DNA from: a virus
Virus record (IMG/VR): IMGVR_UViG_3300021961_000024
Coordinates: 1 to 64,000 of that record
Direction: 5' to 3' (one strand)
DNA: 64,000 nucleotides
The notes beneath the pieces were generated by a model that saw only the letters and a program-made list of their open reading frames with translations, made no database searches and was not told where the DNA came from. A program made the position numbers and the translations under genes. The stretch's first letter is position 1. Every line of letters begins with the position of its first letter. Below are positions 32,570 through 62,081 of the stretch, piece after piece.

Positions 32570-33277
32570 ATGGCATATCCCTTTGAAGGAAAACAAATTT
32601 ATAGTGTTACATATACTAATAAAGAAAATGATACAGTTGAATTAGTTTGGAATGAAGGAACAAAAGAATCTCCTGAATTACTTTCTTTTTTCGGTGATCC
32701 ATCGGATCCATCTTTTAATAAGTGGTTAACTGATAATGATTATGGTCATGAAGTAATTTATGAAAACACGCGGGATATGAATGCCGCTGATGCTAAAAAC
32801 TTTGTTCAAATGATTCAACAATATGCTGACCCATATGTTAAGAAGATGAAAGAGGAATATGAAACTAATTTTGAAAAGTTTAAAAAGCAACTTATAGATG
32901 ATTATGAAGGATATCACGAAAAGATTAAACAAGATTATGAATCTTCATTTAGACAGATCGAAAGCGAATATAGAGAAAAAATCTCTGTAGTAGAATTAGA
33001 AGAGAAATTTCTTATAGATCTAAAAGAAAAACAAAAGCTTTCTTTCGAAGAAATGAAAACTCAATTAGAAAGACGTGAAATGAAGCAAAGTGATATTATT
33101 CAATATATTGCACAAAATAACTCTGATGAAGAAGCTATATTTAGAGCGAAGTTATCTATTTTTGAAATACCCTCTATTAAGAATTCTAAAGATCGTACAT
33201 TAAAAACTAATATCCGTAAAGCTAAATCTATTGCTGAACTTATTTCTTTTGCACAAGGGGTCGGGGCTTTTGAATGA
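32570..33277 (+). CDS. Long coiled-coil protein at the edge of the modification cassette
   Basis: A 235-aa protein. Residues 1-80 are a small mixed domain (FEGKQIYSVTYTNKENDTVEL...); residues 85-175 are an almost unbroken charged coiled coil (YVKKMKEEYETNFEKFKKQL...). The C-terminal helix ends in SIAELISFAQGVGAFE. It could be a fibre or a chaperone. Its TGA overlaps the ATG of the first cassette gene (33274-33277), so the cassette is translationally coupled to the structural genes. Confidence 0.6.
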   Translation: MAYPFEGKQIYSVTYTNKENDTVELVWNEGTKESPELLSFFGDPSDPSFNKWLTDNDYGHEVIYENTRDMNAADAKNFVQMIQQYADPYVKKMKEEYETNFEKFKKQLIDDYEGYHEKIKQDYESSFRQIESEYREKISVVELEEKFLIDLKEKQKLSFEEMKTQLERREMKQSDIIQYIAQNNSDEEAIFRAKLSIFEIPSIKNSKDRTLKTNIRKAKSIAELISFAQGVGAFE

Positions 33278-33930
33278 ATGTAATCTTTGTGAAATGGGGT
33301 ACAAAGTACTCCATTGATGATGTAAATAGATTATTTGAATCTTTATACAAATATCGGCCAGATTTTAATTATTATTGCTATACTGAAATCCCAGGTGATA
33401 GCAAAAAAGATATCGATTCTCGAATTACTATTATTGATATCCCATTCAAACCAGCATTAAAAAAATGGTGGAATAAACTTCGGATGTTTAGTCCGGAGTT
33501 TCCTCTTGTGGGGAAAACTATCTATTTTGATTTGGATATTATGATAAATTCAGATCCCTTTGGCATTTTAGATAGTGTCGATTGGGATAAGTTAACTTTG
33601 ATTAACTGCCATTGGAAATCAGGAAAGATTTACGATAGAGCCACTAATTATGACGTCAGGATTAATTCTTCGGTTATTACGTGGACTGCAGGAAATTCCG
33701 ATATCCATCAACTTTGGAATCATTTTTATCTAGGCGGGTTAAAGGATTATTATCTTCGTAAATATGTAGGTATTGACCGATTCATCGTGCACGAAGAATT
33801 TGAATATAATACATTCCCCTCAGAGTTTATTCATTCATATAAATACGAATTAGATAAGATTGCGCCTATTACTACATTTGAGGAAGTTCATGATAAATTC
33901 GCCATTGTATCACGCTCTGAAGACGATTGA
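33274..33930 (+). CDS. GT-A-like glycosyltransferase (cassette gene 1)
   Basis: A 218-aa protein with a nucleotide-sugar GT-A-type layout: an N-terminal strand (NVIFVKWGTKYS), and KTIYFDLDIMINSD with D86-x-D88 as the candidate DxD metal motif. The C-terminal EFIHSYKYE resembles the end of small GT8/GT24-type transferases. Short for a GT, so it may work with a partner. It is the first of 18 coupled genes. Confidence 0.6.
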   Translation: MNVIFVKWGTKYSIDDVNRLFESLYKYRPDFNYYCYTEIPGDSKKDIDSRITIIDIPFKPALKKWWNKLRMFSPEFPLVGKTIYFDLDIMINSDPFGILDSVDWDKLTLINCHWKSGKIYDRATNYDVRINSSVITWTAGNSDIHQLWNHFYLGGLKDYYLRKYVGIDRFIVHEEFEYNTFPSEFIHSYKYELDKIAPITTFEEVHDKFAIVSRSEDD

Positions 33931-34537
33931 AACTGTATATAAAGAATCTCAATACGGCATAAACGATTTATATCGTATCGTGGACATTGTACATTCTTTA
34001 GATAATAATCATTTTCGCAGTAAGCAATGGTTAGTTAATACATTTAAAGAAATCTATGATGGCGTATATGGTCAAAACTCAGGTGGTAATTTTTATATCG
34101 CCGGCGGGTGGTATGGGTTATTAGGTGATCTATTAAAAAAAGCATATCCTCAAGATAATTACCATGTTACTTCTGCCGATATGGATCCGTTTTCAGATAT
34201 GCTAGGACAGAAGATTTTTCCGGATCATAAGTTTCATTTTAAAATAGAAGATATTACCGAAGAAATAGATATATCGAATGTTACAGCTTTAATCTCTACT
34301 AGTTGTGAGCACATCGACAGAGAAGATTTATGTGAATTGGTAAGTAAAAAACCAGAGAATGCTTTTGTAGTATTACAAAGTAATAACTATTACGATTTAG
34401 ATTCACATATTAATTGTTCACCCTATCTAGATGAATTTGTGGGATATATTGAACCACATTTGTCGAAGAGATGGATTGCCTATAAAGGTGCAATGGATCT
34501 TGGTGACTTTACTCGTTACACCCTAATTGCTCAGTGA
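33890..34537 (+). CDS. SAM-methyltransferase-like protein
   Basis: A 215-aa protein from ATG 33890, which has GAGGAAG seven bases upstream. NFYIAGGWYGLLGDLLKKAY gives a strand-glycine loop like motif I of class I methyltransferases, VTSADMDPF an acidic end of strand 2, and ALISTSCEHI fits the later strands. The target could be a sugar or peptide made by the cassette. It overlaps the preceding gene by 41 bp. A non-methylating Rossmann protein is possible. Confidence 0.5.
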   Translation: MINSPLYHALKTIETVYKESQYGINDLYRIVDIVHSLDNNHFRSKQWLVNTFKEIYDGVYGQNSGGNFYIAGGWYGLLGDLLKKAYPQDNYHVTSADMDPFSDMLGQKIFPDHKFHFKIEDITEEIDISNVTALISTSCEHIDREDLCELVSKKPENAFVVLQSNNYYDLDSHINCSPYLDEFVGYIEPHLSKRWIAYKGAMDLGDFTRYTLIAQ

Positions 34538-34544
34538 GGAATAA

Positions 34545-35426
34545 ATGACTAATAAAATAATCTTTAGTATCTACGTTGATATTCCAGAAGAGAATTTGGA
34601 TAATCCAGGTTGGTGGGAAAACGGAGTACAAGTACAAACACGTAAAAGTTTGGAGGCTAAGTTAGCCTTTAAAAGATGGAGTTCTACCATTATAAAGCGG
34701 CATAAATGGTATGCTGAAACGATTGGTGCAGATTATAGACTTTATCAAAGTAGCGAAGACTATAAAGAATATTACGAAACTTTTCATAAAAAATATCCTC
34801 AGATTTCCGAATACGATATTATTAATTTTTATAAGCATCATCTTATGAAAGAGATTGCCGAAAAAGAGGATTATGACTTAATCTGTTATATGGATTTCGA
34901 TGTTATTCCAAATACATCTGAAGACATTTTTGATGAGCATGATCCGTGGAATAATTTCTGTTGTGCTGAATCAAATGACGAAGCCATCCGCGGAAAAGAG
35001 ATAGAAGCGGACAGATATAATTTCTGTATTAGAAATCCTGCTTCGAAATATTGGAACACCCATGCAATGTTATTCGAAGAAGGATATGAACCAGATAACG
35101 ATGTGTTTAATACTGGTATTATGGTTGCAAGTAAAGATATGATTAATAAGCTTGATTACTTTGGTAATTTTGAAGAGGTTTTAGAGCTTATGACAGATCT
35201 TAAACATGATGAAGATTCGATGTATCCTACAAACATTCGTAGAGTATTTAATTACGATAACGAAACCGTGTTCTCATATAAACGAGTAGTTAACGAAGTG
35301 CCCATCCAATTCTTTGACGATTATTGGCACAGAAGAGTCTTTGATATTGATACTTCTACTGATGGCGCAAAAATGTACCATGTCATTAGTAAACTATTCT
35401 CTACAGTAATGCCATATGATCCATGA
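34545..35426 (+). CDS. GT-A-like glycosyltransferase (GT8-like)
   Basis: A 293-aa protein. YDLICYMDFDVIPN supplies D117-x-D119 as DxD, and DNDVFNTGIMVASKDMI is the acceptor-side N-x-G segment found in GT8-type enzymes. The end, KMYHVISKLFSTVMPYD, may hold the metal-binding His. It has the most complete glycosyltransferase pattern of the group. It ends in an ATGA overlap with the next transferase. Confidence 0.62.
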   Translation: MTNKIIFSIYVDIPEENLDNPGWWENGVQVQTRKSLEAKLAFKRWSSTIIKRHKWYAETIGADYRLYQSSEDYKEYYETFHKKYPQISEYDIINFYKHHLMKEIAEKEDYDLICYMDFDVIPNTSEDIFDEHDPWNNFCCAESNDEAIRGKEIEADRYNFCIRNPASKYWNTHAMLFEEGYEPDNDVFNTGIMVASKDMINKLDYFGNFEEVLELMTDLKHDEDSMYPTNIRRVFNYDNETVFSYKRVVNEVPIQFFDDYWHRRVFDIDTSTDGAKMYHVISKLFSTVMPYDP

Positions 35427-36088
35427 AAATATTTTGTGTTCGTATCGGTGACAAATATGGAATCGAATACGAGAATTATATAAATCAAAAATTAAAAGAT
35501 TACGAGGTGATTTGGATCCATGAACCGTTCCATCCATCGGTAGTCTTACAATGGAATAAAATGTATGCGATGGGTTTGTCTCTAGATGAACCCATTTGCG
35601 TTATTGACGTAGATATTCTATTAGTCAATGACTATAAACAGATATTCGATTATCCCATAAGACGCGGAGAGTTTTTAAGCATTCCATCTTGGTGGAGAGA
35701 TAGTCCTTGCAAAATTAACGGGGGATTCTTTAAGTATTATCCTATTGATTGCAATCCCATTTATGATAAGTTTATGAAAGACCCTGCTTACTGGCAGAGT
35801 TATTATATTAAGAATAAAATGACTGTAGGTCCAGTAAATGGGGAACAGAACTTTGTATTCGATTCTATAAATGAGTTAGAATTAAAACTTAAATACATTC
35901 CAAATGAATGGATTACTCGTTGGGTTTCAGATAAGTTTATGTCTGACGAGTGGAAGAATGAAATGGAACGTCTTTATAAAGGTTGGATATATAAGAATGG
36001 AGAATTCAATCCTGAAATTAAAATGGTTCATTTTACAAATAGCCTAAACAAGCCGCATGAGTGGAAAGAATATGTCAAATACATATAA
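35423..36088 (+). CDS. GT-A-like glycosyltransferase
   Basis: A 221-aa protein. ICVIDVDILLVND has D62-x-D64, PCKINGGFFKYYP matches the acceptor strand of GT8-like enzymes, and KMVHFTNSLNKPHEW at the C-terminus is the His/Lys-Pro-Trp metal and phosphate motif. It is distantly similar in layout to the 33274 protein, so duplication is likely. It overlaps the radical-SAM gene by 17 bp. Confidence 0.62.
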   Translation: MKIFCVRIGDKYGIEYENYINQKLKDYEVIWIHEPFHPSVVLQWNKMYAMGLSLDEPICVIDVDILLVNDYKQIFDYPIRRGEFLSIPSWWRDSPCKINGGFFKYYPIDCNPIYDKFMKDPAYWQSYYIKNKMTVGPVNGEQNFVFDSINELELKLKYIPNEWITRWVSDKFMSDEWKNEMERLYKGWIYKNGEFNPEIKMVHFTNSLNKPHEWKEYVKYI

Positions 36089-36875
36089 AGAAAAAGAGCT
36101 CGTCGCTTGGATTGATATATCCACATTTTGCAATGCTGCTTGTCCTCAGTGTCATAGAACTAATCCAGAGGGGTTAGGCAAAATAGATTGGCTTCCACTT
36201 ACTCAGTGGACTTTAAGCGAATTTATGAAAACTTTTACCCCCCAGGATATGGAAAAAATATGGAAATTTGAAATTTGTGGGACATGGGGAGATCCCGCTA
36301 TGAATAAAGATCTAAAAGAGATCATTGCATATATTATAAAATTTAGCGAATGCTATATTCAGATTAATACGAATGGTGGAATACGTGATGAAGATTGGTG
36401 GTGGGAACTGGGATGTATCGGCCGAAAAAGATTAGAAGTCTATTTTGATATTGAAGGCGTTACCCCCGAAATGCATTCTAGATATAGACAGAAAGTAGAT
36501 CTAGAAAAACTAAAAGCTAATATTCACGCATACGTGGCCTCGGGCGCCCGCGCGAACGCGCACGTGATTGTATTTAAACATAACGAAGAACACCTATATG
36601 ATATTCTTCATATGATTGATAATGAGTTAGAAATTAAAGGTGATATTATTATCCAGGCATCGAATAGATTCCACAAGGATGGTAAGATGACATTTACAAA
36701 TGAAGATGGTGAAAAGATTACTATAGAAGAAGTAACGAATAAAGAACATCCCCTTCTTCAAGACATTGTTCCTACCCGTGATCATGAATGGTGGGAAAAG
36801 ATTGGAAAACATAACCTCACATGGGGATTGTGGACACCTAGTAATAAGGTAGAAAATGAGCAACACTCCGAATAA
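36072..36875 (+). CDS. Radical SAM enzyme lacking its own SPASM domain
   Basis: A 267-aa protein. WIDISTFCNAACPQCHR carries the Fe4S4/SAM motif CxxxCxxC (C20, C24, C27), and FEICGTWGDPAMN stands where GGEP-type SAM contacts lie. The chain stops after the barrel, and the next gene supplies the cysteine-rich SPASM-like part. ATG 36072 follows GTGGAAAG. The product should perform radical chemistry on a sugar or peptide; substrate unknown. Confidence 0.82.
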   Translation: MSNTYKEKELVAWIDISTFCNAACPQCHRTNPEGLGKIDWLPLTQWTLSEFMKTFTPQDMEKIWKFEICGTWGDPAMNKDLKEIIAYIIKFSECYIQINTNGGIRDEDWWWELGCIGRKRLEVYFDIEGVTPEMHSRYRQKVDLEKLKANIHAYVASGARANAHVIVFKHNEEHLYDILHMIDNELEIKGDIIIQASNRFHKDGKMTFTNEDGEKITIEEVTNKEHPLLQDIVPTRDHEWWEKIGKHNLTWGLWTPSNKVENEQHSE

Positions 36876-37218
36876 AAATAATATTGTTTGTCGATGGATG
36901 GAAGAAGATAAGTTTCTAGTAAACCCTGATAAACAAGTTTGGCCATGCTGCTATCTTGCGAATCAAGGATATAAGTGGAGAGTTACTGGTAAGTATAACG
37001 ATCCTGATATTCTTCATAGAGGTGTAGATGATATTACTAATCCGGTAATGCAAGAGTATTATAAGAACGAAAAAGAACTAAATCTAATGAACAATTCATT
37101 AGAAGATATTTTAAATCATGATTGGTTTAAAAAGACATTGCCAGAATCTTGGGATACTGATAACCCACATAGACTTTGTATGGTAATGTGTTCTCGATAT
37201 TTGGACGATGAAGAATGA
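36856..37218 (+). CDS. Stand-alone SPASM/twitch-like Fe-S domain protein
   Basis: A 120-aa protein. C12, C31-C32 (VWPCCYLANQG), C108 and C112 (RLCMVMC), with SLEDILNHDWFKKTLPESW between them, form the pattern of a SPASM or twitch auxiliary cluster domain normally fused behind a radical-SAM barrel. A TAG lies just upstream in its frame (36850), so it is not a simple frameshift of the preceding gene. Initiation is coupled, overlapping the barrel gene by 20 bp. Together the two may make one split enzyme. Confidence 0.72.
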   Translation: MSNTPNKNNIVCRWMEEDKFLVNPDKQVWPCCYLANQGYKWRVTGKYNDPDILHRGVDDITNPVMQEYYKNEKELNLMNNSLEDILNHDWFKKTLPESWDTDNPHRLCMVMCSRYLDDEE

Positions 37219-38288
37219 GTTTAAATGAAGAAGAACCGAAGGATAGTTACGGTGTAAACGGTCCGTGTAATGCCCCGTGGAATAATATGTATTTTACCGT
37301 ATGGGGTAAATGTTCACCTTGCTGGAAACTACCCGGATTATGTGATCAATGGTCAGAAGACAGATCTATCATGGACATTTGGAAAGGTGACAAGTTCCAA
37401 ATGTATCGTGATGCATTATCTGAAAACAAATTTATTAATAGATGCCAAGAGTGTGAAAAGGATATTAAGTGCGAAGTGTGGCCACTCGCTAAAGCATATG
37501 AAAAGTTTCCAGTTAGAGAATATCCTTCTCTTATGGAATTGGAATTAAGTAACCAATGCAACCTCGAATGTGTAATGTGTAATGGAACCTTGAGTAGTGG
37601 TATCAGAAAGAATCGCGAAAATTTACCTCCTATCCCAATGATCTATACTCAAGTATTTAAAGATCAGTTAGAAGAGTTTATACCGCATCTTGAAGAATTA
37701 AGATTTAATGGCGGTGAACCATTTGCACAACCTATCGTTCTAGAAATCTGTGAAATGGTTGCAGTGATTAAACCGTCTCTAAAAATTAATATCGCTACTA
37801 ATGGAACAGTTTACAACAAACGTGTACAACGAATTTTAGATTCGTGTAACATTCATTTAAATATCAGTATTGATAGTTTTATTCCAGAGAGATATGAACA
37901 AATTCGTATTAACGGTAAGTTCGATAAACTCATGAAGAACTTTGACAAATTTAATAAGTATTGCAAAGACTTCGATCGAGAGATTGCTGTAATGGTTAAT
38001 CCCATGAACAATAACTGGGATGAAATGGTTAATGCCGCAAAGTGGTGTGATAGTAAAGAGGTAAATTTATGGTTTAATACTATCCTATATCCAGAGCATC
38101 TTGCTATTTGGAATAGATCTTCAGATGAATTGAAAAACATTTATGCTACTATGTCATACCAAATGAAAAATTATAAAGAAGGTCGTAACAGACATATTGC
38201 CGAACACTTAGTCGAAAATCAAGTAAAGATGTGGCTACTTGATAGTTATGTTGGTGATTATGCCGGAAGGATCGACATTAAGTTATGA
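37215..38288 (+). CDS. Twitch-domain radical SAM protein A
   Basis: A 357-aa protein. An N-terminal cysteine domain comes first (CNAPWNNMYFTVWGKCSPCW, C18/C33/C36, then CQEC C77/C80 and a C86), followed by the radical-SAM barrel with QCNLECVMC (C115, C119, C122) and LRFNGGEPF. This order, twitch before barrel, is that of the N-twitch radical-SAM family found in several marine phages. It is linked by ATGA overlaps on both sides. Confidence 0.82.
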   Translation: MSLNEEEPKDSYGVNGPCNAPWNNMYFTVWGKCSPCWKLPGLCDQWSEDRSIMDIWKGDKFQMYRDALSENKFINRCQECEKDIKCEVWPLAKAYEKFPVREYPSLMELELSNQCNLECVMCNGTLSSGIRKNRENLPPIPMIYTQVFKDQLEEFIPHLEELRFNGGEPFAQPIVLEICEMVAVIKPSLKINIATNGTVYNKRVQRILDSCNIHLNISIDSFIPERYEQIRINGKFDKLMKNFDKFNKYCKDFDREIAVMVNPMNNNWDEMVNAAKWCDSKEVNLWFNTILYPEHLAIWNRSSDELKNIYATMSYQMKNYKEGRNRHIAEHLVENQVKMWLLDSYVGDYAGRIDIKL

Positions 38289-39427
38289 GTTTCTGTGTAG
38301 CACCGTGGAAAAATTTTTGTATTGAGCCAGATGGATTTGTTCGTCCTTGCTGTTATTTTTCCCATGATAGAAACTTAATGCCTTATATTGAAAATAAAAC
38401 TATAGGAGAAATATATAACTCTCAATATTTTAAAGATTTAAGAAATCAATTTCTTAAGGGTGAAAAGCCTGATACATGTAAAAGATGTTGGGACATAGAG
38501 CAGTCTGGCAGTGAAAGCCACAGAATTAAACATAACAATATAGAAAAATTTGATATTAATGAATTTACTGAAACTGCTGAATACCCAACTCGATTCGATC
38601 TTAAATTATCTAATATCTGTAATCTTAAGTGTAGAAATTGTAATGGTTATTCTTCTAGCTTGATAGAAAAGGAAGAAAAAAAATTTACGAAGGAACGCCG
38701 TAATTATCTTTTATCAAATAAAATACTGGGTACTCGCAATGAAAAAGAGTTTATAGACTATATTAATAATATTACTTTCATCGAGTTAACCGGAGGAGAA
38801 CCCTTTGTAAGTCCTGAAAATAGGAATTTGATTTTTAAGTTAGCAGAATTAGATGTGGCTAAGAATATTCATTTGGCAATTACTACTAATGGTACAACGT
38901 TTGACCGAAAGATTATTGAAAATCTAAATCAGTTTAAAAAAGTTGACATTGCTTTTAGCTTAGATGATATCTACGAAAGAGCTGAATATGCCAGACACGG
39001 CCATTCTTTCGATAGTATCGTAGAGAACTTAAAAACCGCTATTAGTGAATTAGATAGTAATAAGATTAAACTAAGAGTTCATAATACAGTTGGGCTTATG
39101 AATATATATTACTTAACTGAATTTATAGAATTTATGGAAACGGAATTCCCAGAAATATCCTATGGGTTTTCACCTCTTGATACTCCTGCAATTTTAAACG
39201 TAAAAAATTTATCCCCAAGAATAAAATCTGAAATATTTGTTAAATTGTATAATCAATCTCATAAATTAAAAGAAATTATAAAATACATGCTGAGTGAGGA
39301 TAGCCTTTACTGTTACGAATCAATGAATGCATTTTTATCAAAAATGAGAATTTTGGATTTAAAGCGAAAAGAATCTTTTGAAGACACTTATCCAGAGTGG
39401 TATACTGTTTTGGAAAAACATCTATGA
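38285..39427 (+). CDS. Twitch-domain radical SAM protein B
   Basis: A 380-aa protein. Its N-terminal domain is FCVAPWKNFCIEPDGFVRPCCYF (C4, C12, C22, C23) plus CKRCWD (C65, C68), and the barrel starts ICNLKCRNCN (C112, C116, C119) with ELTGGEPFVSPEN. It is paralogous to the proteins at 37215 and 40383. It overlaps both neighbours by four bases. Confidence 0.84.
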   Translation: MSFCVAPWKNFCIEPDGFVRPCCYFSHDRNLMPYIENKTIGEIYNSQYFKDLRNQFLKGEKPDTCKRCWDIEQSGSESHRIKHNNIEKFDINEFTETAEYPTRFDLKLSNICNLKCRNCNGYSSSLIEKEEKKFTKERRNYLLSNKILGTRNEKEFIDYINNITFIELTGGEPFVSPENRNLIFKLAELDVAKNIHLAITTNGTTFDRKIIENLNQFKKVDIAFSLDDIYERAEYARHGHSFDSIVENLKTAISELDSNKIKLRVHNTVGLMNIYYLTEFIEFMETEFPEISYGFSPLDTPAILNVKNLSPRIKSEIFVKLYNQSHKLKEIIKYMLSEDSLYCYESMNAFLSKMRILDLKRKESFEDTYPEWYTVLEKHL

Positions 39428-40386
39428 ATGAGTTCACGCATTATATCAAAACAATTTATAAAGGAATAAAAGATAGCAACGAAATTGTGGAAATCGGTGC
39501 TGGTCAAATTTGTAGATTTAGTAGACAGGATGTGGGACCTTATGCAAATATTATTTTTCTATTATCATATTACTTTTGCATGGCGCAAGTTATGCATGAA
39601 GATGGTTTTTATAAGGGCCCTTTAAGATTATCGGTAATACTTCCCGTAAAGGCTTATGGAAAATTTAAAGAAGGAGATTCTGAAGAAATCTATCATAGAA
39701 TTATTTGGTTTTTAGAAAATTTTGCAGATCCTCCCAATGGGGCTATTATTTCTGTTTATATTAGTTCATCATATTGGAATGATGGATGTTTTGATACCCC
39801 ATGGATAGCAAATACTTTGTGGCATACAAAAAAACAGTGGGATCCGGAAGTAGGCAAAAAAAGTAATTATATTACATTGCAACCTCATAGTGAAAGATGG
39901 CAATATAATGATCGAGAATCGCCACACCGCATTAAAATCAGGGAACAAGTTGAAATTGTTAAAGAATGGGCTTCATATAATAACATTGAAATAATCAATG
40001 TAGATTATACGAGTCCAATCGACGAAGTATATAATTTTATGCTTGGAGCAAAGGCCCATATAGGATATCTTGGTGCAACTAGTTATATCCCCGCTATTTG
40101 TGGCACTAAAACTCTATACATTGGAAGACGGTTTAATTATCTAGATATTCATAGGGATATTGGCAAGACCGAGCTTAGCCGCGATAAAATTAATAGAATT
40201 CCTGGTGGAACTTACGAAAGACTTCCAGATCATGCTATTGGATTCGTATCTTATCCTGAATATGGCCATTTAATTAGATATCATCAAGAATGGAAAAGAA
40301 TAGTACAAGACCCTATCAGATACCAAATAGATATTCATGCAGATGAGTATGAAATAACCTTACCTGAAGCATTGGAAAACTTATGA
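39424..40386 (+). CDS. Putative transferase of GT-B-like type, paralog of 47405
   Basis: A 320-aa protein from ATG 39424. GAGQICRFSRQD near the N-terminus and KAHIGYLGATSYIPAICGTKTLYIGR in the C-terminal half have counterparts in the 47405 protein (GQSYIVRFDRHS; KAHFSYTGSFYSLAPHIGIPTIGIGR). The second motif resembles the nucleotide-sugar-binding loop of GT-B enzymes such as heptosyltransferases, where a reduced-access check (a 'too-small-to-be-seen' Gly/Ser loop) precedes a strand. I do not recognise the family, so a glycosyltransferase role is inference from fold hints and neighbours. Confidence 0.5.
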   Translation: MNEFTHYIKTIYKGIKDSNEIVEIGAGQICRFSRQDVGPYANIIFLLSYYFCMAQVMHEDGFYKGPLRLSVILPVKAYGKFKEGDSEEIYHRIIWFLENFADPPNGAIISVYISSSYWNDGCFDTPWIANTLWHTKKQWDPEVGKKSNYITLQPHSERWQYNDRESPHRIKIREQVEIVKEWASYNNIEIINVDYTSPIDEVYNFMLGAKAHIGYLGATSYIPAICGTKTLYIGRRFNYLDIHRDIGKTELSRDKINRIPGGTYERLPDHAIGFVSYPEYGHLIRYHQEWKRIVQDPIRYQIDIHADEYEITLPEALENL

Positions 40387-41627
40387 AAGTATATCCTAAA
40401 TCATGTATTGCGCCTGTTGTTGGATTTACATTAGATCCTAAAGGTGAGATTGCGTTGTGCTGTAATTCAAGAAGGGTCGGCACTAAATTATCTGATATTA
40501 GTTCAATTAAGGATTTTTTCCTAGATGAAAAATATAAAAATTATAGAGAGATTAATAATGATAAGGGCTGGGATAATATCACTGAATGCTATGGATGCAT
40601 ACGCGATAAAAAACTAAACAGAGAGTCGAATGTACATTGGTTTGAAACCCAATTAGATAAACCTTACGAATATTATAGAGATAATCTAAAATTTAGATTT
40701 TTAGAAGTTACCACTAGTAATATCTGTAATCTTAGTTGTGCGATGTGCAACAGTTATTTTAGTTCAATGTGGCATAAAATTCATGAGCAGGTGCTCGGTA
40801 CGCCTCTCGATCCTAATGCTCTAAATAAAATATCTGATCATGACTTAGAAAAAGTATTAAAAGTTATTCCTGACTTAGAAGTCCTAATGATTAAAGGCGG
40901 TGAACCATTTGCGGATAAAGCAAATACAAAGATCCTAAAAAGTTTAATCGGCGTGAATAAAAATTGCAAGATAACTATTGTTAGTAATATGCACACCATG
41001 TCAAAAGAAAATCTGGATATTATGAAAGCCTTACATAAACAAGGTAATAAAATTTCTCTTTCGGTTAGTATTGATGGGGTCGGAGAAACCTATGATTGGA
41101 TTCGAGGTGGGGCTTTTCAGACTACCGTAAAAACTATGGAAAGATATTACAAAGAAACGCAAGCGAAATTTGCTATTCAAGTTACTGTCTCCGTTTGGAA
41201 TATACTTAGGTTAAAAGAAATCTATCAGTATTTTAAAGATAAGCCTTATCTTACTAAAATCAATTTCGAAAATATTATAGAATCTCCTTATTATGGTTCT
41301 CCTAAACTACTAAGTCAGGATATATTAGATGAATATATTTTAGACTTTTATACCGAGGTTAAACATACAGAGAGACAAGCAGAAAAAAAATTTATTGAGG
41401 ATAAATATTTTCATCCGGAAAAGGGATTACGATACTATCCATATAAGACTATAATTAAAAACCTACTTAATTTAAACTCTTATGAATTAGAAATGAACGA
41501 TTGGGACAAAGAGAAAAAACGAAATTATTATCAAGCGTTTACAGATTATACAAATAATTTAAATAAGGTTAGAGGTTCTAATATTTTTGATATCCAACCC
41601 GACTTAAAAGACGCGATGGCTATGTAA
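40383..41627 (+). CDS. Twitch-domain radical SAM protein C
   Basis: A 414-aa protein. Its N-terminal cysteines are C8, C26-C27 (EIALCCNSRR), C69 and C72; barrel motif NICNLSCAMCN (C115, C119, C122) and MIKGGEPFADK. It is longer than its paralogs, with a Lys/Tyr-rich helical C-terminus that may bind the substrate. ATGA overlap upstream; its stop overlaps the carbamoyltransferase ATG. Confidence 0.84.
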   Translation: MKVYPKSCIAPVVGFTLDPKGEIALCCNSRRVGTKLSDISSIKDFFLDEKYKNYREINNDKGWDNITECYGCIRDKKLNRESNVHWFETQLDKPYEYYRDNLKFRFLEVTTSNICNLSCAMCNSYFSSMWHKIHEQVLGTPLDPNALNKISDHDLEKVLKVIPDLEVLMIKGGEPFADKANTKILKSLIGVNKNCKITIVSNMHTMSKENLDIMKALHKQGNKISLSVSIDGVGETYDWIRGGAFQTTVKTMERYYKETQAKFAIQVTVSVWNILRLKEIYQYFKDKPYLTKINFENIIESPYYGSPKLLSQDILDEYILDFYTEVKHTERQAEKKFIEDKYFHPEKGLRYYPYKTIIKNLLNLNSYELEMNDWDKEKKRNYYQAFTDYTNNLNKVRGSNIFDIQPDLKDAMAM

Positions 41628-42943
41628 TGTATACTGGATTATCATACGGATTTCATGATGCGGCTATAGCATATATTGAGGATGATCAGATCCTATTTGC
41701 TGAACATGCTGAAAGGATAAGTCGTAAGAAAAACGACAGACATCGCATTGAAGACTGGGAGATTAAAGGCGAGTCAGTATATTATGAAAAGCCATTTAAA
41801 AAGAATCTTCGTAGACTATATGCTGGGCAGAAATGGAAATCTATGCCTAAGCATGATCATTATGTAGAACATCATTGGTCTCATGCAGCCGCAGCCTATT
41901 ATACTAGACCATTTACAAGTGAACCAGTTTGTGTTATAATTGACGCAATCGGCGAGTGGGATACGGCATCTATTTGGTGGAAGAAGAAAAAGGTTTGGAG
42001 TATGAAATACCCCAAATCTATTGGTTTGTTCTACAGTGCTATTACAGATTACGTCGGACTAAAACCTATGGAGGATGAGTATATCCTTATGGGTATGGCT
42101 GCATTCGGTAAGCCGACACAATCTTTATATCATGTATTTGATTCGAATTGTCATAGAGGGGCGAGAGATTTAGATCTCGGAGATAACTATGAAGATCTCG
42201 CTGCAAGCGCACAGTTAAGAGTAGAACAAGAGATTCTTCACATTATGGAAAAAGCCAGAAAGTATTCTGACTATCTTTGCTATGGCGGCGGTGTGGCTTT
42301 AAACTGCGTGGCTAATTCTAAGATCCGACCCATGTTTAAGGATATGTGGATTATGCCATGTCCCGGTGATGCCGGATCATCGTTGGGTGCTGCAGCAGCA
42401 ATTAATGGACATATGCTAGATTGGCAAGGGCCATATCTAGGATATGATATCAGGAGGAATGTAAATGTTAAAGAAGTTGTACAACATCTTATTGATCATT
42501 CTTATTGTGGCATTGCAAATGGTCGTGGTGAGTTTGGCCCTCGTGCCCTTGGCAATCGTAGCTTGCTTGCTGACCCTAGACGAGATGTTAAGGATACGGT
42601 TAATCAAATTAAGCGGCGACAAAAATTTCGACCCTTTGCGCCGGCGATCCTGGAAGAATTTGCTGAGGACTATTTCGAAGGTCCTATGAATGAATATATG
42701 CAATACGTCGCAATCGCAAAGCACGATCACGCGAGCGTGACGCACGTGGACGGTACCGCGCGGGTACAAATAGTAAAGTCTGATTGTAAATCTATATTGC
42801 GACCTATTCTTGAAGAGTGGTACGAACAAACATCCTGCCCTATGTTACTTAATACATCCCTAAATATTAAAGGACAGCCAATCGTTAATAATGAGAAAGA
42901 TGCAGAAGATTTCGAAAAAGAATATAAAGTAAAGGTTTTTTAA
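41627..42943 (+). CDS. Carbamoyltransferase (NodU/CmcH/TobZ family)
   Basis: A 438-aa protein, shorter than NodU or TobZ (about 570 aa). SYGFHDAAIAYIEDD and EHHWSHAAAAYYTRPF (H82/H83/H86) belong to the Kae1-like ATP and metal domain; GGGVALNCVAN, GRGEFGPRALGNRSLLADPR and MLLNTSLNIKGQPI are the carbamoyl-transfer signatures. The enzyme uses carbamoyl phosphate and ATP to carbamoylate a hydroxyl, usually of a sugar. A GC-rich patch (42714-42768) codes KHDHASVTHVDGTARV. Confidence 0.88.
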   Translation: MYTGLSYGFHDAAIAYIEDDQILFAEHAERISRKKNDRHRIEDWEIKGESVYYEKPFKKNLRRLYAGQKWKSMPKHDHYVEHHWSHAAAAYYTRPFTSEPVCVIIDAIGEWDTASIWWKKKKVWSMKYPKSIGLFYSAITDYVGLKPMEDEYILMGMAAFGKPTQSLYHVFDSNCHRGARDLDLGDNYEDLAASAQLRVEQEILHIMEKARKYSDYLCYGGGVALNCVANSKIRPMFKDMWIMPCPGDAGSSLGAAAAINGHMLDWQGPYLGYDIRRNVNVKEVVQHLIDHSYCGIANGRGEFGPRALGNRSLLADPRRDVKDTVNQIKRRQKFRPFAPAILEEFAEDYFEGPMNEYMQYVAIAKHDHASVTHVDGTARVQIVKSDCKSILRPILEEWYEQTSCPMLLNTSLNIKGQPIVNNEKDAEDFEKEYKVKVF

Positions 42944-43881
42944 TGTCTTATATTTTAGCTCACGGGTGTAGTTATACTAATAAAAATTATAAACCCTATG
43001 TAGATCCAGATGTTATAATTGATTTTTTATTTTGGCCAGAACTTCTTGGGATAGATTTAAATTGTGATGTAGTCAACTTGGGATCTAATGGCCATGGTAA
43101 TCATAGAATTTGCATGGAAACAGTAGATTATTTATTTGCAGCTAAAGAAAAACCAAAAGCTGTATTTGTATTACTATCTGGCTGGGATAGGCATCATATT
43201 TTAGGAGCAGTAAATTTTAACCCTACTAATGAATTAACATCACTTTATGCAAAAATTGAGGAAAATAAGATAACACATGATCAAATAGAATTAAGAAATG
43301 TTATTAAAGGTATGGAAAATTATGATCCTTCTATTAAAGAAAGTGATCATATAAAGCATTTAAAACTAAAACTTGCATTTACAAAATATCAAATAGAAGC
43401 CAACCGGCATAGTATGAAGCCGGAAACTATTATAAGTTCTAATCTAAGACCTGTTGAATACTTATATATGATTTGTGATTCTATGAATATTCCTCTTTTT
43501 ATAATGCAAGGGTTAACCCCTACTGGATTTTACGCAATTGAAAATAGAATACCAGATTATATTAAAAAATTACAATCGGAAGGCAAAATCAACGGTTTGA
43601 ACCTTTTTAATTATAAACTTTTTCACAAAGCTTTAATGGGTAATCAATATTTTAATAATATAGATGATAGAGAAGATAGACCAATCGGATGGCCATTTTT
43701 TCCAGAGTTAGGGGGATATTATCTAGATCATATTATAAGTCGTTTAGAGAAAGATAATAATTATACTTATGAAACAACACCATATAGGATATCGCTTTTA
43801 GATAGGCATCCTAATGGAAATGGTCAAATGTTAATTAAAAAATACTTTCTTAAAGAATATAGGGATAGAATAAATGAATGA
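42943..43881 (+). CDS. SGNH hydrolase/acyltransferase-like protein A
   Basis: A 312-aa protein. The N-terminus ILAHGCSYT carries the block I Ser (S10), NLGSNGHGNHRI is a block II/III-like Gly-Asn loop, and LLDRHPNGNGQ near the C-terminus gives the Asp-x-His dyad (D287, H289). The family removes or adds acyl groups on sugars. The gene is more AT-rich than its neighbours. Paralog of the next gene. Confidence 0.65.
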   Translation: MSYILAHGCSYTNKNYKPYVDPDVIIDFLFWPELLGIDLNCDVVNLGSNGHGNHRICMETVDYLFAAKEKPKAVFVLLSGWDRHHILGAVNFNPTNELTSLYAKIEENKITHDQIELRNVIKGMENYDPSIKESDHIKHLKLKLAFTKYQIEANRHSMKPETIISSNLRPVEYLYMICDSMNIPLFIMQGLTPTGFYAIENRIPDYIKKLQSEGKINGLNLFNYKLFHKALMGNQYFNNIDDREDRPIGWPFFPELGGYYLDHIISRLEKDNNYTYETTPYRISLLDRHPNGNGQMLIKKYFLKEYRDRINE

Positions 43882-44764
43882 TTATATTCTTTGCGGAGGC
43901 TGCAGTTTCACGGCTGATCAATATGATTTTCCAGTGTGGCCCGCATTAGTAGGAAAACATTACAATATAAGAGTTAATAATGTGGGAGTAGGTGGAGGAG
44001 CTAACGATTCCCAATTTGATAAAATTATAGATGTTCTAATAAAGAAAAAAAATAATAAACCCAAGCATTTATTATATGCAATGACGGAATTTTATAGATT
44101 TTATGCGCAATTTCCAGAAGATGAAAATTTTAGAGTTTTTTCTTCTTCGAATCAAATGTCCTACGATCAATTTGTTCAGTTTTCAATGGAAAACGGATAT
44201 CCAGATCCTAATCAGAGTGCTGAAGATTATAATATAAGAAGATATATCATAGATTTGGGTCTTCAAATTTATTTTGATACCAGACTCTTTATAGATTATA
44301 ACTTTAAACTATTAATTAGATTAATAGATACCTGTGAACTTTTAAATATTCCTATTACAGTGGGTCTTGCGTTTGCTCCCCACGCTTCAGGTGTAACACT
44401 TCCTTCACCAACATCAGTTGACGGAAAATTCAGCTTTGACAGATACCAAGGAATTAGGTATGCAAAATATATATCGCAAGTCAGAAATTTCGATTTAAAA
44501 GATCCTTATATGGTAGACAGAGATAATTTTAACACAGAATTTTTAAAAAATCCATATTTTAAAAAGATAGATCAAGACCCTAAATATTACTCTAAGATTA
44601 TCGGATGGCCATTTATAGAAACCTTTGGCGGTCATGTTTTAACAAATTGGAACTGGGATGAGCATGATAAACATGTTATATCGCCAACGGATGGGCACCC
44701 AAATAAATTAGGTCAAGAATTTATGGCTGAACATTTTATCAAACATATAGGATCAACTCTATGA
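43874..44764 (+). CDS. SGNH hydrolase/acyltransferase-like protein B
   Basis: A 296-aa protein with the same architecture as its neighbour: LCGGCSFTAD (S11), NNVGVGGGANDSQFD, and SPTDGHPNKLGQEF (D273, H275). It lacks a signal peptide, so it should act on a cytoplasmic precursor rather than on exported polysaccharide. It overlaps the preceding gene by eight bp and the 39-aa peptide by four. Confidence 0.68.
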   Translation: MNDYILCGGCSFTADQYDFPVWPALVGKHYNIRVNNVGVGGGANDSQFDKIIDVLIKKKNNKPKHLLYAMTEFYRFYAQFPEDENFRVFSSSNQMSYDQFVQFSMENGYPDPNQSAEDYNIRRYIIDLGLQIYFDTRLFIDYNFKLLIRLIDTCELLNIPITVGLAFAPHASGVTLPSPTSVDGKFSFDRYQGIRYAKYISQVRNFDLKDPYMVDRDNFNTEFLKNPYFKKIDQDPKYYSKIIGWPFIETFGGHVLTNWNWDEHDKHVISPTDGHPNKLGQEFMAEHFIKHIGSTL

Positions 44765-44880
44765 AAATAAAAAAACTAAGAATTTGGAAATATAGAATCC
44801 TACTGTTTTTAAGTAGATTCCGCAAAAAGGAACCGGATCGAACTTATAATTTTATTTACGAAGACGATTTAGACGAATAA
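44761..44880 (+). CDS. 39-aa basic/acidic peptide upstream of a radical-SAM-SPASM gene
   Basis: A short ORF starting MKIKKLRIWKYRILLFLSRF, with an acidic end (YEDDLDE). The first half is basic and amphipathic, possibly membrane-binding; no cysteines. The ATGA overlap with the SGNH gene and a position 10 bp ahead of a radical SAM gene support expression. It is a candidate substrate peptide or small membrane adaptor; neither is proven. Confidence 0.5.
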   Translation: MKIKKLRIWKYRILLFLSRFRKKEPDRTYNFIYEDDLDE

Positions 44881-44890
44881 GGAACCCACT

Positions 44891-45850
44891 ATGTTGCCGA
44901 TTAAAAAGGCAGTAATTGAAGTATGTGGATCATGCAACTATTCATGTAAGTTTTGTCCACAGTCATTAGAAATGGGTGGTAGAGAATCCCCATTTAAACG
45001 AATGATGAACTTCGATTTGTTTTGTAATACTCTCGATCAGTTAAAAGATAGTGAGGTAGAAGAAATCTATCTCGAAGGTTCTGGTGAGCCGACTATGAAT
45101 AAAAGACTTGCCGATTATGTTCAGGCTGGTACTGATCGTGGATTCCGAATGTGTTTTATTACGAATGGCTTTTGGTTTAAAGATGATCTAATGAAACGAG
45201 TAGTAGATGCAGGATTGCATTTCGCTCGTATTTCTGTTACTGGTTATAATCCAGAACTTTATCACAAGTGGATGAGCAAAGACGCTTTTTATGAAGTTAT
45301 GGATAACGCTAATGCCGCTATTGAATATGGAGGCGCAGGTAAAATTGGATCTTATCATCTTATACTAGATAATAATCAAGCAGAGTTTGAATCCCAGGAA
45401 TATCAGAATAATTGGATTAATCATGTTCCCGGTATTAAGTCTTCAATTTGGAAAATGCACAATTGGTCCGGGGTGTATGATGAGATTAACTGGAGAAAGA
45501 AACCAGAGAAAAGATCTTGCGGTAGACCATTTTCTCCTGACCTAATTGTTCGCGCGGGCGGGAATGATGGTAAACAAGGTGCCGTGGTTCCTTGCTGTAT
45601 GGTATTGGGACAAGATAGCAAAGGCGTCTTAGGTCATTTATCAGATCAAACCATAGAAGAGGTTTGGAACGGGGATAAATATCAATGGCTAAGACAAATG
45701 CATAGAGACCATCGCTTTGATGAAATCGACTTTTGCAAAAACTGTGATATGTTATATGACGCGCCAGAAGCATTGGTTTGGTCTAACTTTGAAACAAGTT
45801 ATGACAAATTAACTGGAGGGGCTTTCAGTATGAAAGAGTTTAGAATATGA
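44891..45850 (+). CDS. Radical SAM enzyme with intact SPASM domain
   Basis: A 319-aa protein. The barrel begins CGSCNYSCKFCPQ (C15, C19, C22), with EGSGEPTMNK as the SAM-contact segment. The C-terminal SPASM part holds C211 (SCGRPF), C236-C237 (VVPCCMVLGQDSK), LGHLSDQTIEEVWNGDKY and C283/C286 (DFCKNC). SPASM enzymes mature peptides or modify sugars with auxiliary Fe-S clusters. ATG follows AAGGAACC. Confidence 0.88.
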   Translation: MLPIKKAVIEVCGSCNYSCKFCPQSLEMGGRESPFKRMMNFDLFCNTLDQLKDSEVEEIYLEGSGEPTMNKRLADYVQAGTDRGFRMCFITNGFWFKDDLMKRVVDAGLHFARISVTGYNPELYHKWMSKDAFYEVMDNANAAIEYGGAGKIGSYHLILDNNQAEFESQEYQNNWINHVPGIKSSIWKMHNWSGVYDEINWRKKPEKRSCGRPFSPDLIVRAGGNDGKQGAVVPCCMVLGQDSKGVLGHLSDQTIEEVWNGDKYQWLRQMHRDHRFDEIDFCKNCDMLYDAPEALVWSNFETSYDKLTGGAFSMKEFRI

Positions 45851-47415
45851 AAATATTAATGGCTTATCCAAATCTTCCCATGATGCTAAGTCCACCTTTA
45901 TCAGTAGCATACTTTACTGATATTTGCGACAGGGAAGAAGTTGAATTTCAGCTATTCGAAACATCAACATATGATGACGCAAGCTTTGCAGATGCCCAGA
46001 CTCGTAAAGAACAGTTGGGTGCCGGTAGAGCTATGGTTGATTACGAAGACGCCTTTGAAATGTTAAAGCCTACACAAGAAATGATTCCTGATTTTGTGAA
46101 AAAGGTCAATGAATATAAACCGGACTTAATTCTATTATCCATCGTCGAGGATACTTACTTTGATGGTATGAAAATGTTAGAATCGGTTAACCACCTAAAT
46201 ATTCCTCATATTGTGGGCGGCGTATTTCCTATTAATGCACCTGATCTTGTTATTGCCAATCCACTAGTAAAAGTTATGTGTCGATATGAGGGCGAATATG
46301 TCGTAAGAGATGTTATTCGTAAAATGAAGGGCGGCGAATCTATTCAGGATGTAAAGGGATTGTGGATTAAAAATGAAGATGGCACAATATTAAAAAATCC
46401 TCCACAGCCTCTAGTAGACTTGTCCGAGTACTATACTAATTACAGATTGTTTAGTGAAAAAAGATTCTATAGACCTATAGGAGGAAAAGTTAGACGAACA
46501 CTACAATTAGAAACTTATAGGGGCTGTCCATATAGCTGTACATATTGCAATTCTCCTACTACTCGTGATATGGATAAAAAATTTGTAAGAAGAGATTCTT
46601 TAGATTCTGTTAAAAGAAAAATAGAAAGAACTATTAAAGATAATAATCCTCAATTCTGGTTTATCTTAGATGATTCGTTTACTGCTAGGCCAAAAAGGGA
46701 ATTGTTTCCTCTTTTAGATATTTTAAAAGATGCTGGTATTCCCTGGTGGTGTAATACTAGATTTGACGATATTGATGAAGAGATTCTTGCCGCAATGAAA
46801 GAGGGACATTGTGAAAGAATCCAGTTCGGTTTAGAAAGCGGTAATGAGTATTATCGTATTAATTATCTAAAAAGAAATGTGAGACAAGAAGTATATTATA
46901 AAAAGGCAGAAATCATGAATGCTTCTGGTATTCCTTATGGTATGAATGTTATTATTGGTTTACCTCTAGAAACCAGATCTATGGTAATGGATACTGCTAG
47001 ACTCTGTAAAGATATCGGAGGATATGATGGATTGGGCGTTTCTTTATTTGTTCCATATCATGGTACTGGTCTAAGGAAAGTAGCACTAGAGCATGGATTT
47101 ATTAAAGAGGATCAGATTGGTAGCAACGGGGGATTCCAGGGGTTACCATTTATGAGAATGCCGAAACCCTATTTGCAGTTGGATGAAATGCAGGATCTTA
47201 CTGAGAAATTTAAATATTACGCATATTTTAAAGAAAGTATGTGGCCAGAGATCGACGCTGCAAAAGATCTTTCTAAATACGAAAAAATATACCAAGAGGA
47301 ATTCTTTTCTAGTCCCATTGCTCAATATGGTGATGAACACGTAGCCTCTCGTAAAAAGAGTAAATGGGCATGTGAAGCAGACGAATATATGGACTTTAGG
47401 CAATATGCATGTTGA
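45847..47415 (+). CDS. Radical SAM protein with B12-binding-like N-terminal domain
   Basis: A 522-aa protein. Residues 1-165 have the Rossmann layout of B12-binding radical SAM enzymes (KILMAYPNLPMMLSPPLSVAY; PDLILLSIVEDTYFDG; HIVGGVFP), but no D-x-H-x-x-G, so cobalamin would bind base-off or not at all. The barrel starts YRGCPYSCTYCNSP (C227, C231, C234), and IQFGLESG and GMNVIIGLPLET are typical of this class. Many such enzymes are methylases or ring-forming enzymes. It is coupled to both neighbours. Confidence 0.82.
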   Translation: MKILMAYPNLPMMLSPPLSVAYFTDICDREEVEFQLFETSTYDDASFADAQTRKEQLGAGRAMVDYEDAFEMLKPTQEMIPDFVKKVNEYKPDLILLSIVEDTYFDGMKMLESVNHLNIPHIVGGVFPINAPDLVIANPLVKVMCRYEGEYVVRDVIRKMKGGESIQDVKGLWIKNEDGTILKNPPQPLVDLSEYYTNYRLFSEKRFYRPIGGKVRRTLQLETYRGCPYSCTYCNSPTTRDMDKKFVRRDSLDSVKRKIERTIKDNNPQFWFILDDSFTARPKRELFPLLDILKDAGIPWWCNTRFDDIDEEILAAMKEGHCERIQFGLESGNEYYRINYLKRNVRQEVYYKKAEIMNASGIPYGMNVIIGLPLETRSMVMDTARLCKDIGGYDGLGVSLFVPYHGTGLRKVALEHGFIKEDQIGSNGGFQGLPFMRMPKPYLQLDEMQDLTEKFKYYAYFKESMWPEIDAAKDLSKYEKIYQEEFFSSPIAQYGDEHVASRKKSKWACEADEYMDFRQYAC

Positions 47416-48388
47416 ACATTTAAAAACCATTTATATTAATTGTGAATCTGATGGGAAAAGAGCAGAATTAGGCCAGAGTTATATCGTAAGATTTGATCGG
47501 CATTCTATCCACACAGTGGTAACTCAAGTATCTAAAATAGGAAAAATGTTTTGTGATGCGCATCTTATGCAGCAAGATGGACTAATGCGATCGACAGATA
47601 TAGTTAATATAGTCTTATTATTAACCCCCGCTTGTTTTTGGAATATCTATGGGCATAAAGATAGCGAATCATCTGTGGATCGAATCTATTGGATGATTAA
47701 CAATTTTAAACTTCCAAATATAGGAATGAGAATATCTGTCTATACCGGTGAGGAGATGGATATTAACATTGATGGAACATTTAGTCTGTTTTGGTTATGG
47801 CCGACAAAAGAACAATGGAATAAAAATAATACAGAAAACTATATCACATTTCAAAAACCCGAAGCAAATCCTAATAAAGTTTCTTGGAATAGAATTAATA
47901 TAAAAAAATGTATTAATACAATCGAGACTTATGCTTCGGAAAAAAATTTAGACATTAAATATCTAGATTATACACAAAAATATGAAGATGTGTATAGAAC
48001 TCTTTTAAAAGCAAAAGCACATTTTTCTTATACCGGTTCTTTTTATTCTTTGGCGCCGCACATAGGTATTCCTACTATTGGGATAGGTAGACCAGCAAAA
48101 GATCATTCTATTCTTTATCGTAATCCGTTTGCAGATACTATGGACTTATCTGAAAGATATATGGATATTAAAAATCATCTATATGGTAGAACAATATCTG
48201 ATAGTGGAAGAGTACAACATCTTTTTCCGGATGGAAAACTTTACAATTATCCAGTCATTAGTATGATAGATACAAATAGCCCAGATCATATTAAAGAAAT
48301 TATAGACAATCTTGATCGTTTATCTAGATTTTCAATAGAATGCCCCTCAACGGATTCTTATCTGTTAAATCATCCTAGGGATAAATAA
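47405..48388 (+). CDS. Putative transferase of GT-B-like type, paralog of 39424
   Basis: A 327-aa protein from ATG 47405, inside the end of the radical-SAM gene. It shares GQSYIVRFDRHS, WPTKEQWN (39424 has HTKKQWD) and KAHFSYTGSFYSLAPHIGIPTIGIGR with the 39424 protein, so the two are duplicates that diverged. The Gly-rich C-terminal loop hints at a GT-B nucleotide-sugar site. Function inferred only. Confidence 0.5.
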   Translation: MHVEHLKTIYINCESDGKRAELGQSYIVRFDRHSIHTVVTQVSKIGKMFCDAHLMQQDGLMRSTDIVNIVLLLTPACFWNIYGHKDSESSVDRIYWMINNFKLPNIGMRISVYTGEEMDINIDGTFSLFWLWPTKEQWNKNNTENYITFQKPEANPNKVSWNRINIKKCINTIETYASEKNLDIKYLDYTQKYEDVYRTLLKAKAHFSYTGSFYSLAPHIGIPTIGIGRPAKDHSILYRNPFADTMDLSERYMDIKNHLYGRTISDSGRVQHLFPDGKLYNYPVISMIDTNSPDHIKEIIDNLDRLSRFSIECPSTDSYLLNHPRDK

Positions 48389-48389
48389 A

Positions 48390-48911
48390 ATGAAAGTTAA
48401 TAAACCGTGGGAATACTATTATACCGATAACTTTCTTCCGGAAGATCAATATAACTCTTTGTTGGATCAATGTAAATCCCTTTTTAAAGATAGTACGAAA
48501 GATGTAGACCGCTATATCTTGGATCATGATCCAACTCCGCAGATTAAGAATTACATGAACTACTTTAATGAAAAAAGAGGATATTATAACCTAGCTAAGT
48601 TTATACATTTAACTTCTACTAAAGCCAACTTTGTGCATCCTATGCACGTCGATTCTGAATTCAAGATTATGTCTGCGGTATTATATCTGGGGGAAGACAA
48701 TAATGGTACTCGGATTTATGCAGAAAAAGACGGTGAGGTTGTAGCAGAAGTTGACTGGAAGCCTAACAGATTATTCGTATTCTGCGGAAAGAACGATGTA
48801 ACTTGGCATGATTATACTAGCAAAGGCCAAAGATTTACCTATAACTATTTCGTTGTCGATCCATCCAAAATTGAAAATCCTGAATATAAATCCGGATTAG
48901 TAAAATTTTAA
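48390..48911 (+). CDS. 2-oxoglutarate/Fe(II) oxygenase (prolyl-hydroxylase-like)
   Basis: A 173-aa protein. HPMHVDSEFK has the iron-binding H86-x-D88, VTWHDYTSKGQRFTYNYF the distal His (H140) and the 2-oxoglutarate-binding Arg (R148). Residues about 66-155 form the double-stranded beta helix. Such enzymes hydroxylate proteins, sugars or nucleotides. Last gene of the cassette; a collagen-like fibre and other virion proteins downstream are possible targets. Confidence 0.82.
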   Translation: MKVNKPWEYYYTDNFLPEDQYNSLLDQCKSLFKDSTKDVDRYILDHDPTPQIKNYMNYFNEKRGYYNLAKFIHLTSTKANFVHPMHVDSEFKIMSAVLYLGEDNNGTRIYAEKDGEVVAEVDWKPNRLFVFCGKNDVTWHDYTSKGQRFTYNYFVVDPSKIENPEYKSGLVKF

Positions 48912-48931: not shown

Positions 48932-48992
48932 ATACTAACATATGGAGCAGGGGCGTGATCGCGCGTCCGACAAAGAAATCGAAAGGTATTTC

Positions 48993-62074: not shown

Positions 62075-62081
62075 GTGAAAG

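Follow-up and report, generated by a model that had tools for sequence, protein, structure and literature searches.

Results

An eighteen-gene cassette lies between tail-fibre genes

The DNA analysed here, referred to as the window, comprises the first 64,000 nucleotides (64 kb) of IMG/VR record IMGVR_UViG_3300021961_000024, a virus record of 157,283 bases from a T4-like marine phage, and it carries between positions 33274 and 48911 a cassette of 18 genes, all on the + strand. Seventeen of these are open reading frames (ORFs) of 120-522 amino acids and one is an ORF of 39 amino acids. Junctions between consecutive genes range from -41 to +10 bases and are mostly -4 or -1, and fibre genes border the cassette on both sides (30798/31601 on one, 48942/49605/51276 on the other), so that the tight coupling and structural flanks noticed in a preliminary description of the sequence are both borne out. 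Further upstream lies a large gene (24710-30001) followed by the fibres; in the cultured Pelagibacter phage Mosig EXVC030M the homologous fibre adjoins an annotated VrlC gene, and gp14 was not identified in our phage. The G+C content is 31-36% in the cassette and 37-43% in most of its flanks. A megablast search of the region against phage records returned no match. The genes of the cassette, its immediate neighbours, and the three genes designated the core below are as follows.

31601..32554, + strand: tail-fibre/structural protein, near-obligate genomic partner of the core
32570..33277, + strand: coiled-coil-like protein between fibre and cassette, no significant family; homologue at the same position in several relatives
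33274..33930, + strand: GT8-like glycosyltransferase (GT), core; profile to glycogenin E 0.01, conserved in the slot
33890..34537, + strand: methyltransferase/spermidine-synthase-like protein, core; profile E 0.0014-0.0024
34545..35426, + strand: second GT-A-like protein, core; DxD invariant in the alignment
35423..36088, + strand: GT8-like GT, same family as 33274 by alignment; glycogenin E 0.01
36072..36875, + strand: radical S-adenosylmethionine (rSAM) enzyme, forming a split pair with 36856; PF04055 41 bits
36856..37218, + strand: stand-alone SPASM protein; PF13186 22.2 bits, cut-off 21.5
37215..38288, + strand: N-twitch-like rSAM; NF033640 130 bits
38285..39427, + strand: N-twitch rSAM; NF033640 297 bits
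39424..40386, + strand: possible GT-B glycosyltransferase, paralogue of 47405
40383..41627, + strand: N-twitch rSAM; NF033640 202 bits
41627..42943, + strand: NodU/TobZ-type O-carbamoyltransferase; PF16861 6e-46, PF02543 3e-41, phrog_1601 9e-86
42943..43881, + strand: SGNH hydrolase-like protein; GxS...DxHP conserved in the alignment
43874..44764, + strand: SGNH hydrolase-like protein; structure model matches GDSL/SGNH structures
44761..44880, + strand: ORF of 39 amino acids
44891..45850, + strand: BtrN-like rSAM-SPASM enzyme; profile best match BtrN 1.7e-12
45847..47415, + strand: B12-type rSAM, AprD4/HpnJ-like; AprD4 4.5e-20, HpnJ 114 bits
47405..48388, + strand: possible GT-B glycosyltransferase, paralogue of 39424 by family alignment
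48390..48911, + strand: probable 2-oxoglutarate oxygenase; HxD...H...R by eye, phrog_274 6.6e-9
48942..49346, + strand: fibre assembly/tail protein closing the slot; phrog_3304 'L-shaped tail fiber protein assembly' 2.4e-16

The preliminary description also held that the cassette contains neither late promoters nor terminators. Terminator patterns are indeed not enriched in the window, but one T4-late-like TATAAATA does occur inside the cassette, at 33838, though such matches in the window are not above chance. The same motif is found at 30767, 48924 and 61498, shortly before fibre gene 30798, fibre gene 48942 and the cysteine-repeat gene described below, respectively; for these positions, too, the window total does not exceed chance.

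Most of the enzyme families recognised in the preliminary description hold up, some of them only in part. The carbamoyltransferase is clear: both its N- and C-terminal Pfam domains exceed their cut-offs, placing it in the NodU/CmcH/TobZ-type superfamily, and it is not NodU itself (122 bits against a NodU cut-off of 1000). The catalytic GxS (block I) and DxHP (block V) of the SGNH proteins are conserved, and for the structure model of 43874 (pLDDT 74) GDSL/SGNH structures top the Foldseek list at probability 1.00, with TMt of 0.5-0.65 and E-values just above 1e-3. The methyltransferase-like protein, whose ORF opens at 33860 and probably starts at 33890, belongs to a family whose profile matches solved structures of a putative methyltransferase and of spermidine synthases (E 0.001-0.002). 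Of the three proposed GT-A-like transferases, 33274 and 35423 match glycogenin weakly, while 34545, in which a DxD is invariant, matches LgtC only below threshold and has no significant match among solved structures. For 48390 the oxygenase motif is discernible by eye, but the matched phrog_274 carries a different label. The paralogues 39424 and 47405 form one family, possibly of GT-B type, to judge from weak matches of a low-confidence AlphaFold model of 39424 (pLDDT 67.6) to POMGNT2, TibC and WaaC.

Six Radical_SAM proteins in the cassette exceed the Pfam cut-off, all with an intact CxxxCxxC motif, and 36856-37218 contains a SPASM domain only, as had been described. Nine rSAM matches occur in the whole record, and the three outside the cassette lie together at 63.6-67.2 kb. 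The split rSAM/SPASM pair, encoded by two overlapping genes (36072-37218), is kept in at least six other phage loci. Against the curated NF033640 (N-twitch) cut-off of 170 bits, 38285 and 40383 qualify as members and 37215 does not. In profile searches of solved structures BlsE and DesII rank below BtrN for the 44891 family, and the B12-binding domain of 45847 scores 27.4 bits, below its cut-off. The known substrates of BtrN, BlsE, DesII and AprD4 are sugars or aminocyclitols, and among solved structures these aminoglycoside and deoxysugar enzymes rank first or nearly so for 44891 and 45847, at low similarity. On this basis 44891 and 45847 would be sugar-type rSAMs.

A three-gene core travels with one fibre family

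To examine how the cassette is organised in relatives, we collected 37 distinct loci encoding a homologue of fibre 31601, each with at least 5 kb of downstream sequence, and scored the core as present when at least two of its three gene families (33274, 33890 and 34545) lay within 10 kb of the fibre gene. The core was present in 36/37. A reverse scan with the second GT (34545 family) gave 31 full loci, near-identical contigs retained, and the fibre homologue was found in 29 of them, with a methyltransferase-like gene in 30 and a GT8-like gene in 30; the alignment of the 33860 family was too divergent to serve as a query. Therefore, the core is not scattered among related phages but is a near-obligate partner of the fibre gene, and it is so in either orientation: among the 37 fibre loci it lies on the + strand in 6, on the - strand in 18 and in mixed orientation in 13.

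The remaining genes are far more variable. At least one rSAM-like gene occurs in 33 of the 37 loci, a carbamoyltransferase in 17 and an SGNH gene in 16. Since the core stays with the fibre gene while these accessories vary from locus to locus and blocks occur inverted, the slot is modular, and the single pathway proposed in the preliminary description does not describe it well. Some relatives are nevertheless close in content; for example, a large part of the cassette, flanked by the same fibre genes, is retained in one locus (L058). The same slot is also present in Mosig at 61-73 kb (MT647606), with the fibre (50% identical to 31601), the second GT (38.5%), the methyltransferase-like gene, a carbamoyltransferase and rSAMs. 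It differs in that the core lies on the opposite strand, facing the fibre, and in the addition of a DegT sugar aminotransferase, a nitroreductase and an epimerase.

A separate set of 80 viral carbamoyltransferase loci places this enzyme among GT8, GT25, 2-oxoglutarate oxygenase and NAD-epimerase genes, with a BtrN-like rSAM of the 44891 family in 31/80. Because tandem arrays of as many as five N-twitch rSAMs, together with GT and epimerase genes, occur in some of these loci, the earlier argument that six rSAM enzymes exceed the needs of a sugar pathway is not a strong one.

In kind, the cassette corresponds to the pelagimyophage host recognition cluster, for which GT and rSAM cassettes have been noted and a change of the host O-chain proposed (PMC7029224). 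The likeness extends to the kinds of genes and to modular turnover, GT and rSAM cassettes varying between phages in both cases, and probably to the location, after the VrlC/fibre genes. In the part of that paper considered here, neither a core and its fibre partnership, nor a role for carbamoyltransferase and SGNH genes, nor a cysteine-repeat/rSAM pair is named. Thus the cluster itself was already known, and the core with its fibre partnership is the new detail. Two further islands of our record, at 120-125 kb and 148-157 kb, contain sugar-enzyme-like genes together with SGNH-like (GCSF) ones.

The cassette may decorate a host surface glycan

We tentatively propose that the cassette is a carbohydrate-modification set belonging to the host-recognition region, with a surface glycan of the host as its likeliest acceptor. 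The core GTs (the GT8-like transferase and the second GT) would transfer a sugar, with the methyltransferase-like protein as part of the core. Accessory rSAM enzymes of dehydrogenase or deoxygenase type would oxidise or deoxygenate the sugar, the O-carbamoyltransferase would carbamoylate it, the SGNH-type proteins would add or remove acyl groups, and the N-twitch rSAMs would be further swappable sugar-altering accessories. The glycan in question would be the lipopolysaccharide (LPS) core or O-chain recognised by fibre 31601, and its alteration late in infection would leave progeny and rival phages unable to bind.

The view that the genes decorate carbohydrate and are linked to fibres, as anticipated in the preliminary description, is supported by the sugar-type rSAM relatives together with the two-way fibre linkage. 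The SGNH fold, the GT8, GT25, epimerase and oxygenase neighbours in relatives, the aminotransferase and epimerase of the Mosig slot, and the published proposal for this region point the same way. Among possible acceptors we would rank the host surface first because of the GT8/GT25 enzyme type and because genes of KDO type occur elsewhere in the genome (KDO-8-P-synthase-type and cytidylyltransferase genes at 98244-99752 of the record; a UDP-sugar dehydrogenase lies at 105091-105936). The GT8/GT25 type and the absence of membrane proteins fit LPS-core enzymes. Several points weigh on the other side. The cassette itself has no gene for sugar-nucleotide synthesis; several of the GT assignments are weak (glycogenin at E 0.01, 34545 sub-threshold, GT-B suggestive); and the N-twitch rSAMs could be of sugar or of peptide type, since their matches in the Protein Data Bank are mixed (SkfB, viperin, BlsE and BtrN). 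In addition, linkage to one fibre would fit decoration of the fibre equally well.

Indeed, the strict linkage is why the fibre would rank second as acceptor. Here the same sugar chemistry would be directed to the virion, by cytosolic glycosylation, through the core GTs, of fibre 31601 or of neighbouring proteins, followed by decoration of that glycan by the accessories, so as to change host range or hide the fibre. The near-obligate two-way link to one fibre family, seen whichever way the core is oriented, and the late-gene neighbourhood agree with this, as does the solubility of all cassette proteins: no membrane segment is predicted among the 18 (best Kyte-Doolittle mean over 19 residues, 1.52), and no flippase or lipid-carrier enzyme is present. 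However, GT8/GT25-type enzymes are typical of LPS, the linkage fits a receptor-matched change of the surface too, and a glycosylation motif was neither identified nor tested for; we consider fibre decoration less likely than a change of the host surface, though a close runner-up.

It is improbable that the genes are hitch-hiking cargo collected at a hot spot of recombination and lacking a shared function. The high turnover and inversions of the accessories are what such a grab-bag would produce, but retention of the core in nearly every fibre locus, intact reading frames and tight translational coupling are not.

Slightly less probable still is DNA hypermodification, in which the carbamoyltransferase, GTs and rSAMs would act on hydroxymethylated pyrimidines. 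A 5-hydroxymethylcytosine carbamoyltransferase of the same family is known (eLife 2021, PMC8670742), and the genome encodes a thymidylate-synthase-like protein (record 102605-103384) besides ThyX. DNA-acting carbamoyltransferases are adjoined by thymidylate synthase, whereas GT neighbours occur in unmodified contigs (PMC8670742). In our phage 41627 is only 25% identical to the 5-hydroxymethylcytosine enzyme and has a different neighbourhood: no hydroxymethylase of thymidylate-synthase type lies beside it, the only such protein being encoded ~60 kb away, and the neighbours in relatives are GT8, GT25 and epimerase genes. DNA would therefore be a distant third as acceptor. A TET/JBP search of the genome gave no match, but the controls likewise gave none. 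Separately, at 102605-104679 of the record the thymidylate-synthase-like protein adjoins an asparagine-synthase-like protein, with ThyX at 109763-110425, an arrangement that might relate to base modification.

Least probable is a role of the cassette in making or attaching a modified ribosomal peptide, which the preliminary description had allowed: some N-twitch rSAMs do weakly match peptide maturases, but 44891 and 45847 are closest to sugar enzymes and no precursor-like ORF is present, the 39-amino-acid ORF at 44761-44880 having been rejected as a candidate since it has no counterpart upstream of homologous rSAMs in relatives.

A second cluster pairs a cysteine-repeat tail protein with rSAM enzymes

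The peptide idea fits better a second cluster (61541-68568; L009) that begins near the end of the window and continues beyond it in the record.

61541..62074, + strand: tail protein with eight cysteine heptads CxCNCN[F/K] (~61850-62020) and an S74-like start; reciprocal rSAM association
63624..64000 (to 64910 of the record), + strand: first peptide-maturase-type rSAM; PapB NF047865 best family
64911-65996 of the record: second peptide-maturase-type rSAM; PapB NF047865 best family
66270-67166 of the record: third peptide-maturase-type rSAM; PapB NF047865 best family
68023-68568 of the record: 2-oxoglutarate-Fe(II) oxygenase, closing the cluster

The S74 chaperone domain seems to be split in this phage: the cysteine-repeat gene terminates (62074) with the start of the domain, and the remainder is encoded by 63329-63652, three small genes lying in between (window 62020-63652).

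The three rSAMs score 69, 151 and 62 bits against NF047865, all below its cut-off of 340, so that they fall outside PapB membership although PapB is the best NCBIfam model, and a PapB-like activity is suggested by sequence comparison. Among solved structures 64911 is closest to CteB (2.5e-26), followed by anaerobic sulfatase maturase, ChlB and SuiB, all of which are directed at peptides or proteins, and a seven-cysteine SPASM motif is invariant in the 64911 family. Whereas CteB and PapB, as SCIFF/ranthipeptide maturases, act on a short precursor peptide, the substrate here would be a tail protein.

The association between repeat and enzyme is reciprocal. When only the heptad was searched for, as a DNA pattern, 38 viral contigs were located, and a 64911-type rSAM is present in 35/38 (22 in the heptad loci and 13 on same-named contigs in the rSAM scan); the remaining three start or end inside the repeat gene. 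In the reverse direction, with an alignment as query because a single-protein query confirmed no relative, 58 rSAM loci scored at least 150 bits and 48/58 contain the repeat. These counts ignore relatedness, and several contigs are near-identical. Whenever repeat and rSAM occur together they share a strand, with a median gap of 1.9 kb and a maximum of 3.2 kb. Among the ten rSAM loci without the repeat, four (L161, L163, L180 and L194) have a contig end less than 1 kb from the rSAM on one side, one (L141) keeps both ends of the repeat gene with the repeats gone, L192 carries a variant form of the repeat, three come from Campylobacter phages, and L196 is the single locus left unexplained. Therefore, as in systems for ribosomally synthesised and post-translationally modified peptides (RiPPs), a cysteine-rich candidate substrate is encoded beside a SPASM rSAM in nearly all genomes. 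By comparison, the heptad occurs in 0/80 carbamoyltransferase loci and 0/79 cellular loci.

A motif for the S74 start follows the repeat in 40/99 repeat ORFs (a contig fetched twice being counted twice), and all four repeat proteins tested exceed the S74 Pfam cut-off. The nearest cellular rSAM relatives are at most 29% identical, apart from one phage-like contig binned as archaeal. Far relatives (25%) occur in lambda-like siphophages (L204-L211, e.g. L206:9388-11257), where a (CT)n protein directly precedes the rSAM, after a gpJ-like tail gene, and a second rSAM is also present. The Campylobacter phages CP220 and CPt10 carry a 36% homologue of 64911 in whose vicinity no CNCN[F/Y] heptad protein was found. 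In CP220 and IBB_35, cysteine-rich CxxC-type proteins (27 and 49 cysteines) lie 6-7 kb from the 64911-type rSAM (L137:19842-20213, L138:15609-16160).

The simplest reading is that the rSAMs modify the heptad repeat, although it may instead be a metal-binding or disulphide-rich repeat that needs them for another reason. On balance we think it probable that in many tailed phages the SPASM rSAMs post-translationally modify, probably by thioether or C-C crosslinks, a tail protein whose CxCNCN[F/Y] heptads often directly precede an S74 chaperone, to give a covalently laced fibre or spike tip, and that lambda-like siphophages have a distant rSAM/(CT)n version. A literature search for phage rSAMs, tail fibres and cysteine repeats, covering open-licence papers, found no report of this pairing, which has apparently not been described before.

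We considered and rejected the possibility that the two clusters form one system. In 18 phage records with the carbamoyltransferase there is no heptad repeat and all matches to the 64911 profile are below 27 bits; conversely, 16 heptad-repeat records lack the second GT and 14/16 also lack the carbamoyltransferase, with our own genome as positive control. Since each occurs without the other in these records, the clusters are independent, and this phage has both.

Discussion

The abundance of rSAM genes in some large phages, 11-12 in CP220/CPt10, was called highly unusual in 2010, with no firm explanation offered there (PMC2853527). The rSAMs of the phage studied here fall into two testable groups, a sugar type in a fibre-linked slot that is also present in the cultured SAR11 phage Mosig, and a peptide-maturase type associated with a cysteine-repeat tail protein, and such a split may explain the large rSAM numbers of some phages. 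If our reading of the second cluster is true, virion parts would bear enzyme-made crosslinks like those of natural products, a RiPP-like chemistry on virions. This would alter the way in which adhesion tips, host range and the stability of fibres are investigated, and it would make new crosslinking enzymes available.

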